Assembly (NCBI RefSeq): GCF_900116205.1
Contig: NZ_FOZS01000004.1
Location: 310,001-374,000, forward strand
Length of the DNA stretch: 64,000 bases
Source: Halostagnicola kamekurae
Lineage (GTDB): Archaea > Halobacteriota > Halobacteria > Halobacteriales > Natrialbaceae
Direction of reading: 5' to 3'
In this document: piece by piece, positions 43,140 through 52,093 of the stretch
How positions within the stretch are numbered: position 1 is the first letter of the stretch
How the letters are laid out: each line of letters begins with the position of its first letter
Notes under the pieces: generated by a model
The model's input: only the letters and a program-made list of their open reading frames with translations
Databases searched by the model: none
Told to the model about the DNA's origin: nothing
Translations under genes and position numbers: made by a program

Positions 43140-44924
43140 ATGAACACACGCAATCAACTCCTCGTCGTGGTAACCGTCGTGATGCTCGTACTCTCGAGCG
43201 GGGCGATGGTGACGGGCGCGTCACCGGCCGAGAATACGACAGATGATGAGACGGTCGACGACGGTCTCGAGACGGACTACGGCGATAACGACACAACGAA
43301 CGAATCGACAGACACGGACGGTGAGGTAACCGACGACGAGTCGGTGACGGTAACGATCGAAGAGGCGACGATCGTCCTCGTCGAGGATAACCTCTCGGAC
43401 GTAGCCGGCGAGGACGGCACGGAAATGATCGAGAACGCATCCGACGACGCGTACGCGGTCCACACCGTCGAGGACATGACCGTAACGATCGAGGAAAGCT
43501 CGGTTCACTCGATTAGCGACGGAAACGGCGCATCGACCGATGCACAGTCGAACGCAAGCGCCGACACCGGCCTCGAGTCCGGCGACGTGACAGTCGACGC
43601 GGCGACGATCTTCGTCACCGTCGACGGCGTCGAAGGGCTGACCGAGACGGCTGCAGACGACGACAGCGCCGACGAGTACGACTCAGAGAGCGATACGTCG
43701 ACCGACGACAACGTCTCGGTGACCGACGACGAAGCGAACGAATCCGAAACGAACGCTTCGGAAGAGGGCTACGACGATAACGCGTCGACTGCCGAAGACA
43801 ATAGCTACGACGACAACACGTCGACTACCGAAGACAACGGCTACGATGATAGCGCGTCGGCAGACGGAAACGGCTACGACGACAACGCGTCGGCAGATGA
43901 CGGAACGGTCGTCGACGACGAAGCCGACGAGACCAGTATCACGATCGAAGAGGCGACCGCGTTCGTCCTGATCGGCGACTACCCGAACATCGCCGATGCT
44001 GGTGCGACGGACGTATCTGACGCCGGCGACGCTGTCGACGAGAACGACACCAACGGCGCCGTCGAGACGAACGAAACTGATGGTGCCGTCGACGGAGACG
44101 GTGCTCTCGAGGATAACGAAACGACCGAGTCTGCCACCCAGAATGGCTGTGTGCCGGTCGAATCGAGCGACGGAGCGACGGATAACGGGGCGTACGACGA
44201 CGCGGGAGCGAACGGAAACGACTCGATCGACTGCAGCACCGAGACGAACGAAAGCGATAGCACGACCGACGGCGAAAACGGTATCGGTGCCGACAACGGT
44301 GCTGACACCGACGAAGCCGCTTCGGACACGTCGACCGAAGCGAACGTCTCCGTGACGATCGAGGAGGCGACCGTCTTCGTCCTCGACACCGAAGGCGAAC
44401 TCTCCGGAGCGAGCGAGACAAGCGCGAGCGATGACAGTGCCGCCAACGAGGCGCCAGTCGAGGACGACTCCGAGACGTCGACCGACGGCGACTCGATCGA
44501 CGTAACGATCGAAGAGGCGACGATGGTCCTCGTCGACAGCTCCGCTGACGAGCCAGCAGCCTCGGCACCCGCTGACAATGATGCGGTCGAAGACGAACCG
44601 GTCGAGGAACCGGCCCCAGCAGAGCCAGCGCCGGATGCGCCGGCGACGAACGACACTGACGACGGGCCTGCTGTCGACGGAGCGGACGAGACGACTGCCG
44701 ACCCGGCGACTGAGCCAGGCACAGACGAGACGACCGCTGCGAACGGCCCGGCCGCAAACGACTCGACAGATGCCGGTCTGGCCACTACCGACACGCCCGC
44801 CGAGCACGAGCAACGACGTCAACCGCGTTTCAGACGCGACGACCGCGGAGGCGGTAAAAGTCTTCGAGGGGATCTACCGGGACGTCAACATCGGACTGGC
44901 CAACGAACTCGCGCGCTCCTGTGA
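43140..44924 (+). CDS. secreted acidic repeat protein, 3' end replaced (truncated)
   Basis: The protein starts with a signal peptide (LLVVVTVVMLVLSSGAMVTG) and then consists of about 530 residues of Asp/Glu/Ser/Thr/Asn-rich spacers with six short beta-like blocks of the type VTIEEAT(I/V)(V/F)VL or VTIEES. Asn-X-Ser/Thr glycosylation sites are frequent, as in haloarchaeal surface glycoproteins, and there is a short run of Gly-Tyr-Asp-Asp repeats. Near codon 557 the reading frame leaves this composition and runs through a basic, unrelated tail (from about 44809) that is the nucleotide-sugar-dehydrogenase sequence read in the wrong frame. The natural C-terminus, probably with an anchor, is missing. 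Confidence 0.7.
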   Translation: MNTRNQLLVVVTVVMLVLSSGAMVTGASPAENTTDDETVDDGLETDYGDNDTTNESTDTDGEVTDDESVTVTIEEATIVLVEDNLSDVAGEDGTEMIENASDDAYAVHTVEDMTVTIEESSVHSISDGNGASTDAQSNASADTGLESGDVTVDAATIFVTVDGVEGLTETAADDDSADEYDSESDTSTDDNVSVTDDEANESETNASEEGYDDNASTAEDNSYDDNTSTTEDNGYDDSASADGNGYDDNASADDGTVVDDEADETSITIEEATAFVLIGDYPNIADAGATDVSDAGDAVDENDTNGAVETNETDGAVDGDGALEDNETTESATQNGCVPVESSDGATDNGAYDDAGANGNDSIDCSTETNESDSTTDGENGIGADNGADTDEAASDTSTEANVSVTIEEATVFVLDTEGELSGASETSASDDSAANEAPVEDDSETSTDGDSIDVTIEEATMVLVDSSADEPAASAPADNDAVEDEPVEEPAPAEPAPDAPATNDTDDGPAVDGADETTADPATEPGTDETTAANGPAANDSTDAGLATTDTPAEHEQRRQPRFRRDDRGGGKSLRGDLPGRQHRTGQRTRALL

Positions 44925-45594
44925 ATCGTTCGGCATCTCGGTCCGCGAGGCGATCGACACCGCGAACGACCTGCCGATGTGCGACCTCCACGACCCCGGT
45001 CCCGGCGTCGGCGGCCACTGCATCCCGTTTTACCCCCACTTCGTGCTCTCGCGGGTCGCCTCGGAGATGCCGGTGACGCGGGCGGCACGTCGGGTCAACG
45101 AGTCGATGCCCGCGGTCACCGTCGCCCGACTCGAGCGAGCGCTCGAGGACAGAGAGACGACGCTCGAAGACGCGGCGGTCGCAGTGCTCGGCATCACCTA
45201 TCGACCGGGCGTCGAAGAGACGCGAGCCGCCCCCGCCCTCGGCGTGATCGAGGAACTCGCAGATCGCGGAGCGACCGTCTACGGCCTCGATCCGCTGATC
45301 GATCCGGCTGCGTTCGGCGCTCGACCGCTCGAGATCGACGAGTTTCCGGACGCAGATGTCGATGCGGCGATCCTGGTGACGCCCCACGAGGAGTTCGAGG
45401 GGATCGACTGGGGCCGCCTCGAGCCGACCGTCGTCGTCGACGGCAGGGACGCGCTCGATTTCGACGACGAGGCGTTCGCCCGTCACCGCGGCTACACGCT
45501 CGGCGGCGCGAGAAGGGACGACGCGTTGGCCGGCGGAGCGGCGGTCGACGGAACGCCGATCGAGGACACGCCGGTCGACGGAGGTGGACCGTAG
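44809..45594 (+). pseudogene. nucleotide-sugar (UDP-glucose/GDP-mannose type) dehydrogenase, N-terminal domain missing
   Basis: From SNDVNRVSDATTAEAVKVFEGIYRDVN onward the frame matches UDP-glucose-type dehydrogenases: central dimerisation helix, the catalytic Cys in GPGVGGHCIPFYPH, and the C-terminal UDP-binding domain with AVLGITYRPGVEETRAAPAL. The N-terminal NAD-binding domain of about 190 residues is absent. Upstream in this frame the sequence is basic nonsense that is the acidic surface-protein gene in another frame. No start codon with a plausible signal lies at the join. The glycosyltransferase gene begins directly after its stop (TAG then ATG). It is a remnant, or a mis-assembly. Confidence 0.85.
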
Positions 45595-48089: not shown

Positions 48090-48377
48090 TTAATAGAAGA
48101 CGATGCCGACCACTTCCATCGCGAAGAACATGGTTACCCAGAGGCCCGTCGTGATGATGACGAGATAGCCGACGCCCATCGCAGCCATCCGCGGGTTACG
48201 CGGCGAGCCGAGGAACCACGCGGCGATCATGACGTAGACCGGCATCAGGATGATGCCGAAAATGAGCCAGGTCCCCGTATCCGGAAACCCCGCTGTCGGG
48301 CCTCTGCCGCCGTAGCCGTGAGTCAACACGACCTCGAGGATCGAAACGAGCGCGCGATCGACCGCGATGGCGCTCAT
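48090..48377 (-). CDS. small membrane subunit of the NrfD module
   Basis: The 95-residue protein has two or three membrane helices (ILEVVLTHGYG, WLIFGIILMPVYVMIAAWFLG, MGVGYLVIITTGLWVTMFFAM). Its ATG overlaps the stop of the NrfD gene by four bases, so it is the last gene of a four-gene operon. No family is recognised; its place suggests an extra membrane subunit. Confidence 0.75.
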   Translation of the reverse strand: MSAIAVDRALVSILEVVLTHGYGGRGPTAGFPDTGTWLIFGIILMPVYVMIAAWFLGSPRNPRMAAMGVGYLVIITTGLWVTMFFAMEVVGIVFY

Positions 48378-49732
48378 GCTCTCACCTCCGCCATCTCGCC
48401 GCCGTCGTCCGACTCATCGTCAGTTTCGTTCTGTAAGTGTTCGATCGCGTGTAGTTCGACCACCGGGAACACCTTCGCGACCACGAGAAAGAACATGGTG
48501 ACCATCGCGATCGTTCCGGTTATCGACGCCAGTTCGATCAGGCTCGGCACGTAGCTACCCGGCACGGCTTCGTAGATATCGAACGTCGGGTGCAACAACC
48601 CGTCGGCGACGAACAGGACCTTCTCCATCAACGTCGCGGCGAGCACGGCGATCGCGGCGACGACAGAGCGTTTCTTCGTGAACACCGCGGGACGGACCGC
48701 CTGAGCGAACGTGTAGATGAGCACCAGCGTCACGAGGGTCATTGCGAGGATGTAGATCGGCGTCGAAAGCTTCGCGCCGACCGCCGCGGCCTGATCGACC
48801 GGCGGCAGGAACGTGCCGCTGATGTTCTGCTGGAGCTGGAGCCAGAGAAAGAGGAGACAGAAGAAGCCGAGCCAGAGGGTGAGCCCGCGGAACACGTCGT
48901 CGCCGATGATGTGGTCCCAGTCGTAGACGTATCGGAACCCGTACGATAACAGGATGACGCCGCTGATAGCCGAGGTCAACGCGATGGTCAGAAACTGCGG
49001 TCCCTGAATCGCACCGAACCAGCCGGGCATCGACGGGATCAACGCGAACAGCCACGGGATGACGCCGCCGTGGAGCAACAGGGGCGCGAGGATGATGATC
49101 GCGAGCGCGAGCCACCAGACCATCCGCTGGACCATCCGATCCTCGCTCTCGGTGTAGCCGATCGTCATGACTTTGTAAATCGGCTCGAAGTGGCTCGGAA
49201 GGTCGTCGCGGAGACGAGTGATGTCGTACCGGAGCGTCAGCGCCAGATACGTCGTCGTGAGAATGAGATAGAGCGTGATGACGGTCACGTCCCAGACCAG
49301 CGGCGAGCTGTGGACGGTGATGTGAAAGTGACCGACGATGCTTCGGACCATCCTGTCGGGCCGTCCCAGGTGGACGATGATGTAGAACCCGGCCGCGGAC
49401 AGTCCGGCGATCGTCAGGAGTTCGGCCAGTCGCGCGACCGGCATGTACCGCTCCATTCCGAGCAACCGAACGGCGGCAGAGAGGATGATACCGCCGTGGG
49501 CGATCCCGACCCACCAGATGAACGCGCCGATGTACACGCCCCACGGAACCCCGCCGCCGCTCCCCCAGTCCGAGAGGCCGGTCACGATGAGTCCACGAGA
49601 GAGCTGGTACATCCACCCAAGGAGAAACACACCGAACACGAGTCCCGCGACGGCAAACAGGACGTAATAGCCCCTCGAGGTGTCCTGAATCGGGCGCAAG
49701 ATGTCCTCTCTGGTCGGTCGTTCGGTGCTCAT
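48374..49732 (-). CDS. NrfD/PsrC-type quinone-interacting membrane subunit
   Basis: The 452-residue protein has about ten membrane helices and the NrfD/PsrC-family patterns: an N-terminal helix after PIQDTSRGYYVLFAVAG, VPWGVYIGAFIWWVGIAHGG, and a conserved HLGRPDRMV in the third block. In known complexes such subunits exchange electrons between quinone and a 4Fe-4S subunit. The gene overlaps the preceding Fe-S gene by four bases (ATGA). A longer reading frame to 50248 is a shadow of the Fe-S gene. A charged C-terminus (ENETDDESDDGGEM) faces the cytoplasm. Confidence 0.9.
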   Translation of the reverse strand: MSTERPTREDILRPIQDTSRGYYVLFAVAGLVFGVFLLGWMYQLSRGLIVTGLSDWGSGGGVPWGVYIGAFIWWVGIAHGGIILSAAVRLLGMERYMPVARLAELLTIAGLSAAGFYIIVHLGRPDRMVRSIVGHFHITVHSSPLVWDVTVITLYLILTTTYLALTLRYDITRLRDDLPSHFEPIYKVMTIGYTESEDRMVQRMVWWLALAIIILAPLLLHGGVIPWLFALIPSMPGWFGAIQGPQFLTIALTSAISGVILLSYGFRYVYDWDHIIGDDVFRGLTLWLGFFCLLFLWLQLQQNISGTFLPPVDQAAAVGAKLSTPIYILAMTLVTLVLIYTFAQAVRPAVFTKKRSVVAAIAVLAATLMEKVLFVADGLLHPTFDIYEAVPGSYVPSLIELASITGTIAMVTMFFLVVAKVFPVVELHAIEHLQNETDDESDDGGEMAEVRA

Positions 49733-51132
49733 AGCAGGTCCCCACCCACGGTTCCCTCCTCGGTGACGTTCTTTCGAGCGTCGGCGAGACGAATGGTGTC
49801 GTCGTCGTTGCTCAGGTAGCTCAGTTCGTCGTACTGAATCGGTCCCTCGACCTGCTGTGCGTTTGCTCCCGGCTCGTTGCCGATGTAGATGATGTTCGGA
49901 TTCGTCCCCATCTCCTCGAGCAACTTGAACGTCGAATCGGCTTCCCCGCCGAAGTCCTCGATCAGGGCCTGGGCCTCCGCTTCTGTCATCCCGTCGTCGC
50001 CCTCCTCGGCCGGTTCCGTCTCGCCGTCGACGATGTCGATCGCTTCCTGAATATCGTCGTCGTCGTCCGCGGCGACCGCCCTCGCTCGTGCGAGCGCCGG
50101 GTTGTCCAGGTACTGTCGGGGTGGGCTCTCGGGGTCGTTCATGTCGCCGAACTGGATCGCCTCGGGCGGACACGCGTCCTCGCAGGCCGTACTTCCGACC
50201 ATCTCCTCGCCCTCGTGTCCGTCCTGACGGGTTGGACAGAACGTACACTTGCTCATAACGCCGCGTGGCGCTCGGCTGTCGACGGGACGATCGCGCTCGT
50301 CGTATATGTGCTGGTCATCGATTGCGTCCTCCGGAACCTCGGGTTCCATCCACTGGAAGTAGTTAACACCGTACGGGCAGGCGACCTGACAGTACCGGCA
50401 CCCGATGCAAATCGCGTAATCGGTGAGTACGAGGCCGTCACTCTGGCGCGTGTGACGCGCCGTCGTCGGGCAGACTTTCTCACACGGCGCGTCGGTACAG
50501 TGCTGGCACGGACGGATGAGTCGCTGTGCGCCCGTTTCGAGTTGCTCGTTGGGGTCCTCCCAGTCGAGGACGTACATCCAGTTCACGCCGGAATCGAGCT
50601 GATTCTCGTCGGCGCAGGCCTCCACACAGGAGAGACACCCGTCACAGGTCTCGAGATCCAGGGCCATTCCCCACTGGAGTCCCTCGTCGTCACCACCGCC
50701 CTGGGTGCCGGCGTCGACGCTCGGTTCTGGGTCGTCCGCGGTCGACCACGCGCCGAGTCCGAGGAAGGCCGCGCCCGCTCCCATCTTCTTTATGACCTCG
50801 CGGCGGTCGACATCGCCGTCGCCGTCGAAGGCCTCGAGGGCTTTCGCGAGTCCGCCACTGTCCTCGTCGCCGGACTCCATCTCGGCCAGCGCCGCCTCGG
50901 TAGGTCGATCGTCCTGACCGAATTCCTCCATCACGTCCTCGTGATACCGCTCGTGAAACTCCGCCTCGGAGAGTGTTCCCTTCGTGACGGCCATCGCGTC
51001 GCGAGCCATCTCCATGCCGAGCTCGACGTCGTACTCGGTCTCCTCGAGTGATTCCTCGAGTTCGCGTTCCCACTCCTCGCCGAGCGGGTGGAACGAATCG
51101 TCCGTTCCGTTCGACTCGTCGTCCGCGTTCAT
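49729..51132 (-). CDS. four-cluster [4Fe-4S] subunit with N-terminal extension and internal twin-Arg motif
   Basis: The 467-residue protein contains four cysteine clusters: CDGCLSCVEAC, CQHCTDAPCEKVCP, CIGCRYCQVACPYG and the CTFCP...CEDACPPEA group, as in DmsB/PsrB-type electron-transfer subunits. Before them lie about 108 acidic residues of a helical N-terminal domain known from haloarchaeal 4Fe-4S proteins, then DRREVIKKMGAGAAFLGLG at residues 109-127, which looks like a Tat signal placed inside the protein. A Glu/Asp-rich insertion of about 60 residues follows the clusters. It overlaps both neighbours in the operon by four bases. Confidence 0.88.
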   Translation of the reverse strand: MNADDESNGTDDSFHPLGEEWERELEESLEETEYDVELGMEMARDAMAVTKGTLSEAEFHERYHEDVMEEFGQDDRPTEAALAEMESGDEDSGGLAKALEAFDGDGDVDRREVIKKMGAGAAFLGLGAWSTADDPEPSVDAGTQGGGDDEGLQWGMALDLETCDGCLSCVEACADENQLDSGVNWMYVLDWEDPNEQLETGAQRLIRPCQHCTDAPCEKVCPTTARHTRQSDGLVLTDYAICIGCRYCQVACPYGVNYFQWMEPEVPEDAIDDQHIYDERDRPVDSRAPRGVMSKCTFCPTRQDGHEGEEMVGSTACEDACPPEAIQFGDMNDPESPPRQYLDNPALARARAVAADDDDDIQEAIDIVDGETEPAEEGDDGMTEAEAQALIEDFGGEADSTFKLLEEMGTNPNIIYIGNEPGANAQQVEGPIQYDELSYLSNDDDTIRLADARKNVTEEGTVGGDLL

Positions 51133-51452
51133 TCAGCGCTCCCTCTGGAATTCGGCTCCGCAGTCGCAGTGGGACGCTTCGTGAGACCCCAGCTGATCAC
51201 GCCGAGTAACAACGCCGTGGCGACGGCCAACGTGAGCCAGCTCGTCGGCGAGGCCGCGCCGTACGCGTTGGATGCAGGGAATACTCGAGTCGTCTGGATC
51301 ATCACGAGGACGAGAAAGAGGACGCCGAACATCGACGCGACGGCGACCCAGATACCGTCGTAGAATGCTTTCATGGTCTCGTCCGCATCGCGGGCACCGC
51401 TCTCGGTCTGTTCTTCCGGTGGATCCGGTTCGGTTCGGTACGTGTGACCCAT
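51129..51452 (-). CDS. small membrane protein, first gene of the NrfD operon
   Basis: The 107-residue protein has a polar start, then two membrane helices (WVAVASMFGVLFLVLVMI and SWLTLAVATALLLGVISWGL) and a polar tail. It overlaps the Fe-S gene by four bases (ATGA), as do the other genes of this operon. A TATA-like TTTTGTAAC on the minus strand lies about 28 nt before the ATG. The family is unknown; it may anchor or assemble the complex. Confidence 0.75.
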   Translation of the reverse strand: MGHTYRTEPDPPEEQTESGARDADETMKAFYDGIWVAVASMFGVLFLVLVMIQTTRVFPASNAYGAASPTSWLTLAVATALLLGVISWGLTKRPTATAEPNSRGSAE

Positions 51453-51679
51453 GGGAACACAACCTACGTCAGCAGTTACAAAAGAACCGCGGGGAGATCC
51501 GAGGATAAATTCGAAATTAGACTGCGTTTGGGCGATGATACTGCGGCGTTATCGAGTAACGTTCAATAACACGGGAACGTCGTCAGTGTCGACATCGGCG
51601 GGTCGACCATCGGCCCGAACGACCACGGACGGGCGGCGTCACCCCACATCCGGGCAGTCGGCACACTCAAAAACAAGAG

Positions 51680-52093
51680 TCACTCGTCGCCCGCCAACTT
51701 CTCTCTGGGTTGCCAGAGCGCACACCAGTCTGCGGACCGTATCTGTCCGGCGACCTCCGTACACGCGCCGATCGCGTCGCCGTTGCGATCCGCGATGTAG
51801 AACGTGCAGTTGCCACACTGTGCGCCGTCTCTGGCACCGCACTCGTAGCCCGCGTTGCTCTTCGATTGCAGTTCGTCCTCGTCGGCTCGCTCGAGGCCGT
51901 CGATGCTCGGCGCGGTCGCTTCGGATTCCGGGACCTCGCCCTCTAAGACATCGAGACACCAGTCTTCGGGTCGTTGCACTGGCGGCGTTGGGTCCGCGCC
52001 AATATTGAGACAGCCAGCGAGACCGACGACCGCACCACTGCCGGCAAGTTGGAGCAATCGACGCCGCGTTTCTCGACGCTCGGAGTCGTTCAT
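51680..52093 (-). CDS. high-potential iron-sulfur protein (HiPIP), Tat lipoprotein
   Basis: The 137-residue protein has a Tat lipoprotein signal: RRETRRRLLQLAGSG followed by the lipobox VGLAGC, so it should be fixed outside the membrane by a lipid. The C-terminal domain has the HiPIP cysteine pattern: CGNCTFY, then GACTEVAG, then DWCALW, preceded by an Asn-Ala-Gly-Tyr-Glu-Cys segment. HiPIPs carry one [4Fe-4S] cluster and ferry electrons between membrane complexes and a terminal oxidase or reaction centre. It lies 227 bp upstream of the NrfD operon on the same strand. Two extra cysteines flank the motif. Confidence 0.88.
   Translation of the reverse strand: MNDSERRETRRRLLQLAGSGAVVGLAGCLNIGADPTPPVQRPEDWCLDVLEGEVPESEATAPSIDGLERADEDELQSKSNAGYECGARDGAQCGNCTFYIADRNGDAIGACTEVAGQIRSADWCALWQPREKLAGDE

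Follow-up and report, generated by a model that had tools for sequence, protein, structure and literature searches.

The DNA analysed here (the window) is a stretch of 64,000 nucleotides from the haloarchaeon Halostagnicola kamekurae, and the subject of this report is a group of five minus-strand genes within it. These encode a high-potential iron-sulfur protein (HiPIP), an iron-sulfur protein (FES), an NrfD/ActC-type membrane protein and two small membrane proteins (TM107 and TM95). Based on sequence comparisons, we consider, with a probability of roughly 0.7, that they specify a menaquinol:HiPIP oxidoreductase able to stand in for complex III while dispensing with hemes, a Rieske protein and molybdenum. 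The genes and the parts of FES are as follows:

51680-52093, minus strand: HiPIP, 137 aa (PF01355)
51129-51452, minus strand: TM107, small membrane protein, 107 aa (open reading frame, hydropathy and tblastn)
49729-51132, minus strand: FES, iron-sulfur protein, 467 aa (PF16947 and several Fer4 families)
50896-51090, minus strand: Ferredoxin_N domain (PF16947) of FES, residues 15-79 (Pfam)
50743-50811, minus strand: internal Tat-type motif of FES, DRREVIKKMGAGAAFLGLGAWST, residues 108-130 (sequence and alignment)
50140-50673, minus strand: four [4Fe-4S] motifs of FES, residues 154-331 (Cys pattern and alignment)
48374-49732, minus strand: NrfD/ActC-type membrane protein, 452 aa (PF03916)
48090-48377, minus strand: TM95, small membrane protein, 95 aa (open reading frame and homologues after NrfD)

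An earlier note, made from the sequence alone, had described four minus-strand genes with ATGA at every junction and a Tat-lipoprotein HiPIP gene 227 bp upstream on the same strand. The open reading frame coordinates bear this out: the overlap is found at all three junctions (TM107/FES, FES/NrfD and NrfD/TM95), and the HiPIP stop is separated by 227 bp from the start of TM107. The HiPIP protein begins with a Tat-type lipoprotein signal that includes a lipobox (RRETRRRLLQLAGSGAVVGLAGC), and its PF01355 domain scores 25.5 bits against a Pfam cut-off of 22. It thus combines a four-Cys domain above the curated cut-off (ligands C93-x2-C96-x14-C111-x12-C124) with an export signal, as a member of the HiPIP family should, and it matches the PDB HiPIP 3h31 (E=0.0014). 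An extra Cys pair outside the cluster ligands (C46 and C85) is kept in the orthologues L138 and L140-L142 and perhaps forms a disulfide.

FES matches PF16947 with 114 bits, in addition to several Fer4 families. The prediction of a four-cluster [4Fe-4S] protein next to an NrfD-type protein (here PF03916) was correct, as FES has a total of 16 Cys in the motifs 163/166/169/173, 209/212/217/221, 242/245/248/252 and 296/299/317/321. The best PDB match is 6f0k_B, the C-terminal iron-sulfur domain of ActB from alternative complex III (ACIII; E=4e-27); FES keeps all 16 Cys, and its CIGC corresponds to CIGT in R. marinus ActB. An AlphaFold model of FES was poor (pLDDT 54) and was excluded from the fold search.

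The twin arginine of the internal Tat-type motif (residues 110-111) would imply that the cluster domain of FES is exported. It is very unlikely, in our estimate, that FES instead remains in the cytoplasm and forms with NrfD a ferredoxin- or NAD-side quinone oxidoreductase, with HiPIP serving something else nearby. A domain of about 108 residues ahead of the motif is unusual for an export signal, and the 227 bp between HiPIP and the four-gene operon would also suit such an arrangement. Set against this, all 30 homologues in alignment A2 share the twin arginine, the unfused state in the operons L046 and L230 described below is a small leading protein followed by a Tat-bearing catalytic subunit, and HiPIP and FES are neighbours in five genera.

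In stand-alone FES proteins without a HiPIP neighbour, Asp often replaces the second Cys of the fourth motif (KC[IV]FDP), which suggests a changed cluster. This Asp occupies the column of window C299 in L143-L145, L147-L151, L153-L157, L165 and L166, and HiPIP-linked FES proteins retain Cys there.

The five-gene set is also present in the congeneric Halostagnicola sp. A-GB9-2. Its exact order, for which the earlier note had proposed a search, was found in only three genomes, all of the window's genus, whereas the FES-NrfD-TM95 core and the HiPIP-FES pairing are far more widespread. TM95 matched no Pfam family, but in most FES-NrfD operons the gene immediately after NrfD is a homologue of it. 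TM107, with two membrane helices predicted from hydropathy, gave no Pfam match over the cut-off and no family link, and by tblastn is recognisable only in the three genomes of the window's genus. A conserved protein of 65-67 aa is encoded about 60-80 bases after stand-alone FES in L143, L145, L146, L150 and L164; it has two apparent membrane helices and may be a counterpart of TM107 or TM95. Nearly everywhere except at the window copy, the FES-NrfD-TM95 operon is followed by a gene for an Mrp/ApbC iron-sulfur cluster carrier (e.g. L031:7523-8620), and this regularity suggests a dedicated cluster-assembly factor.

NrfD matches PF03916 with 68.5 bits, and the PDB contains no sequence relatives of it other than ActC chains, from four ACIII structures. 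Ten long helices are predicted in its AlphaFold model, the number described for ActC (PMC5928083). A Foldseek search with this model returned only four ActC and three ActF chains at E<0.001; as the model is of modest confidence (pLDDT 64) and TM-scores were low (~0.4), the ranking alone was used. The quinol site of R. marinus ActC is formed by W82, I86, F89, P136, H139, L166, D169, V250 and D253 (PMC5928083, the source of the ActC numbering used here). Six of the nine residues are identical in the window protein (W82, I86, F89, H139, L166 and D169 correspond to W64, I68, F71, H121, L145 and D148), two are hydrophobic exchanges and D253 is replaced by Leu. The cytoplasmic half-channel is identical at nine ActC residues (H97, S103, R119, E122, T125, Y176, D191, R196 and D197). 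When FES was used as a query against 84,980 genomes, the matches beyond its haloarchaeal homologues were ACIII-like ActB-ActC pairs of bacteria, in which a gene of 967-1079 aa precedes an ActC-like one. A single in-frame stop codon interrupts some NrfD copies (G011:C4:111883, G079:C1:3101766, G026:C1:317745 and others), which suggests decay of one paralogue.

The ACIII of Rhodothermus, Flavobacterium and Chloroflexus (ActABCDEF) is accordingly the closest known system. It shares with the window module an ActC-type subunit with a quinol site and the same quinol-site and half-channel residues, an iron-sulfur protein resembling FES as a domain of ActB, and occurrence without cytochrome bc1. Bacterial ACIII reduces cytochrome c or HiPIP, the latter being a known acceptor of the Rhodothermus enzyme (PMC5928083); the carriers of the haloarchaeal module would be HiPIP or halocyanin. 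Other differences concern the subunits. In ActB, a MopB domain is fused to the iron-sulfur domain, whereas FES consists only of PF16947 and Fer4 domains. ACIII contains the pentaheme ActA and monoheme ActE, whereas no CxxCH is present in the five window proteins, and no c-type heme genes were noticed among the conserved neighbours inspected. ActF, a second NrfD-type subunit, has no equivalent as each haloarchaeal operon has one NrfD, and ActD has no family match in the window module. Because the MopB domain, the hemes and ActF are lacking, the module cannot be placed within ACIII, and the best reading of its sequences is that it works like ACIII while standing outside it. Published surveys found 0 archaeal ActB proteins (PMC10100899) and filed 42 archaeal sequences of the ActC/DsrP branch of NrfD proteins as DmsC (PMC8076601).

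A four-cluster protein together with an NrfD protein is also found in DsrMKJOP (DsrO/DsrP) and in the Qrc complex (QrcC/QrcD), which supply the best NCBIfam matches of FES and NrfD. Membership in either complex was ruled out, as the scores lie below the curated cut-offs (DsrO, 144.8 against 200; DsrP, 73.9 against 350; QrcC, 135.3 against 400); genes for DsrM, DsrK, DsrJ, Qrc A and Qrc B are absent from the neighbourhood. Cytochrome bc1/b6f (petABD of Haloferax) presumably has the same job as the window module, the transfer of electrons from quinol to a one-electron periplasmic carrier, but its proteins are unrelated. With a single quinol site, the module should not be capable of a Q-cycle, unlike bc1/b6f.

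The window genome itself lacks the defining protein of bc1/b6f. Cytochrome b (PF00033 and PF13631) was not found in this assembly, which is 99.94% complete, and both families were detected in Haloferax volcanii as a positive control; the genome should therefore have no bc1 complex, and the negative searches with both families rule out a hidden cytochrome b. Six genes with Rieske domains are present without a cytochrome b partner. In both heme-copper oxidases, subunit II retains the CuA motif, which should make a one-electron carrier necessary.

This pattern extends across the class. Among 391 haloarchaeal genomes sampled, cytochrome b is present in 292 and missing from 99; window-type NrfD is present in 96 of these 99, and only three of the 391 genomes have neither. 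The anti-correlation is strong (Fisher p=3e-58), although this value is uncorrected for phylogeny and its true weight is lower because the genomes are related. Within the window's family, NrfD occurs in 80/80 genomes lacking cytochrome b, compared with 10/21 of those that bear it. Genus g58 is split (NrfD only in six genomes, cytochrome b only in four and both in one), and in four genera of other families (g74, g37, g50 and g38) NrfD is present and cytochrome b absent. The complementarity of NrfD and cytochrome b thus recurs in separate lineages.

Pfeiffer and Dyall-Smith reported that complex III is not encoded in approximately a third of haloarchaea, Natrialbales in particular, leaving the electron route unresolved (PMC8305020). 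The same unresolved route was described for Natrialba magadii (PMC3403918), and the Natronomonas pharaonis study was unable to assign a complex III (PMC2881530). The window module is a strong candidate for the missing enzyme that passes quinol electrons on towards oxygen, and the locus and its relatives provide a named, testable gene set for this quinol-to-carrier step. In the open-access literature, we found no paper proposing the NrfD/FES module for this role, and nothing that joins NrfD or ACIII with halocyanin or haloarchaea, or HiPIP with haloarchaea.

The earlier note had left room for the HiPIP gene being unlinked from the module elsewhere. This proved not to be the case: in the window's family, HiPIP adjoins FES in 15 of the 21 genomes that have both, representing five genera and including Halopiger djelfimassiliensis, Natronorubrum bangense, Haloterrigena salina and Halovivax asiaticus. 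The neighbours are 443-581 bases apart (measured between matched segments) and are usually divergent outside Halostagnicola. A chance linkage confined to Halostagnicola is ruled out by these 15 genomes. The probability of finding this neighbourhood by chance in five of nine genera was estimated at ~2e-13, although genera are not independent, and the linkage changes four times on the FES tree. Terminal oxidase genes adjoin the module at two loci. In L142 (Halovivax), coxB and a coxA/C fusion adjoin the HiPIP-FES pair, and L210 contains, in succession within ~10 kb, a COX1-COX2 oxidase pair, a small lipoprotein gene, a HiPIP-like gene and an Mrp-TM95-NrfD-FES operon.

Other operons are associated with a different carrier. 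A halocyanin gene (TIGR03102) lies directly upstream of FES-NrfD-TM95-Mrp in two families: the window's own (L063, L068, L211, L212, L213, L224, L225 and L044) and another whose genomes lack cytochrome b (L200, L202, L203 and L205). Halocyanin, the known haloarchaeal carrier (PMC8305020), could accordingly be the main acceptor of a quinol-oxidising complex, with the adjacent HiPIP being minor or separate (e.g. in stress or iron chemistry). HiPIP genes are present in 89 of the 391 genomes, mostly away from the NrfD/FES module, which speaks for this alternative. We regard it as unlikely given that HiPIP is directly beside FES in most of the related genomes that have both, and that no adjacent halocyanin gene was seen in the HiPIP-linked FES neighbourhoods inspected. 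Some distant FES-NrfD modules are found beside an ethylbenzene-dehydrogenase-gamma-like (EB_dh) gene (L037:12402-13787 and L045:11975-13576); its product probably binds heme b and is possibly a further type of acceptor for these modules.

We therefore return to the menaquinol:HiPIP oxidoreductase, which refines the suggestion in the earlier note of a quinol-HiPIP oxidoreductase or haloarchaeal respiratory branch; the complementarity with bc1, the carrier and oxidase neighbours and the molybdopterin inventory (below) all argue for it. Menaquinol would be bound and oxidised by the NrfD/ActC-like subunit, at the membrane's outer face. Its two electrons would then travel singly along the four [4Fe-4S] clusters of exported FES, and the distal cluster would deliver single electrons, in direct contact, to lipid-anchored HiPIP, which would in turn reduce a terminal oxidase that contains CuA. 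TM107 and TM95 may have a part in assembly or coupling. Conservation of the ActC-type half-channel points to proton translocation, and in other haloarchaea halocyanin would take the place of HiPIP.

Electrons could also run in the opposite direction, with the module acting like QrcCD as a menaquinone reductase fed by a periplasmic carrier, for example in reverse electron flow. FES does resemble QrcC and DsrO (about 135 and 145 bits, with cut-offs of 400 and 200), and NrfD-type subunits of known complexes work in both directions. Since both HiPIP and halocyanin are carriers of high potential, electrons would flow downhill from menaquinol to either of them. CuA-type oxidases are among the gene neighbours and the presence of the module tracks the absence of bc1, making a reductase role quite improbable.

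Several observations weigh against the module being a menaquinol:HiPIP oxidoreductase that replaces complex III. Cytochrome b and NrfD occur together in 33 genomes, and the halocyanin-linked operons of the window's family are in genomes that also carry cytochrome b. Most genomes of this family without cytochrome b have no carrier gene beside the Mrp-linked operon, and in many genomes FES and NrfD are far apart. The window genome encodes a cytochrome bd, a possible quinol oxidase bypass. It also has a second FES-NrfD-TM95-Mrp copy on another contig (G000:C1:1420063); this Mrp-linked copy may be the main enzyme, and the window copy may be accessory or condition-specific. At the protein level, the positions of ActC D253 and H247 are Leu and Gly throughout the haloarchaeal NrfD family, the location of the Tat-type motif ~108 residues into FES makes export uncertain, and the structural models are modest for NrfD and poor for FES.

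The absence of a molybdopterin gene from the 64 kb, as stated in the earlier note, was confirmed, the three PF00384 matches of the genome being on other contigs. Two of these proteins are formate-dehydrogenase-alpha-like and the third is the assimilatory nitrate reductase NasA; none is a DmsA, PsrA or NarG. With the window NrfD as query, just one further NrfD was found in the genome, that of the paralogous operon. An orphan DMSO/polysulfide reductase was rejected, as members of this class have a molybdopterin catalytic subunit in the operon and the window lacks such a gene.

A related system is nonetheless found in haloarchaea. L046 and L230 encode, in order, a PF16947 protein of 74-81 aa, a Tat-bearing molybdopterin subunit (PF00384), an iron-sulfur subunit, an NrfD subunit and a chaperone, and by this content are DMSO-reductase-type operons. 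Their small protein, iron-sulfur and NrfD subunits are homologous to those of the window module, and in L230 an Mrp/ApbC gene is also near. In contrast to these operons, the window module has no catalytic subunit, and linkage to HiPIP or halocyanin is seen in window-type modules in its place. In the alignment, FES corresponds successively to the small PF16947 protein, a Tat signal and the iron-sulfur subunit. Taken together with the L046/L230 operon, this fusion indicates that lack of the catalytic subunit is probably a derived state: the catalytic part of a haloarchaeal DMSO-reductase-type operon was probably lost, and the leading protein and Tat signal became fused to the electron-transfer subunit.

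The same homology raises the possibility that FES and NrfD correspond to the B and C subunits of a DMSO/polysulfide-type molybdopterin reductase, its membrane and electron-transfer part, and that the gene for the catalytic subunit lies at another locus, in line with their homologues accompanying a Tat-type PF00384 subunit in L046 and L230 and with the filing of archaeal ActC/DsrP-branch NrfD proteins as DmsC (PMC8076601). We give this very little credence: the genome's PF00384 proteins are of the formate dehydrogenase and NasA types only, no DmsA/PsrA/NarG-type gene was seen in the inspected neighbourhoods of window-type modules, and the small leading protein and the Tat signal within FES resemble those of the lost subunit.

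If the module is a menaquinol:HiPIP oxidoreductase, the minimal needs of an alternative complex III would be one NrfD and one iron-sulfur protein, and a quinol-oxidising respiratory enzyme could arise from a reductase that loses its catalytic subunit. We see about an even chance that a broader proposal is correct, namely that a heme- and molybdenum-free quinol-oxidising module, derived in this way from a DMSO-reductase-type complex, has replaced bc1 several times (in approximately a quarter of the sampled haloarchaea), with exchangeable HiPIP and halocyanin and ActC-type proton pumping, and so represents a third kind of complex III.

Elsewhere in the window, a nucleotide-sugar dehydrogenase-like reading frame at 44770-45594 overlaps the preceding gene and has apparently lost its N-terminal NAD-binding part; it is possibly truncated or frameshifted.

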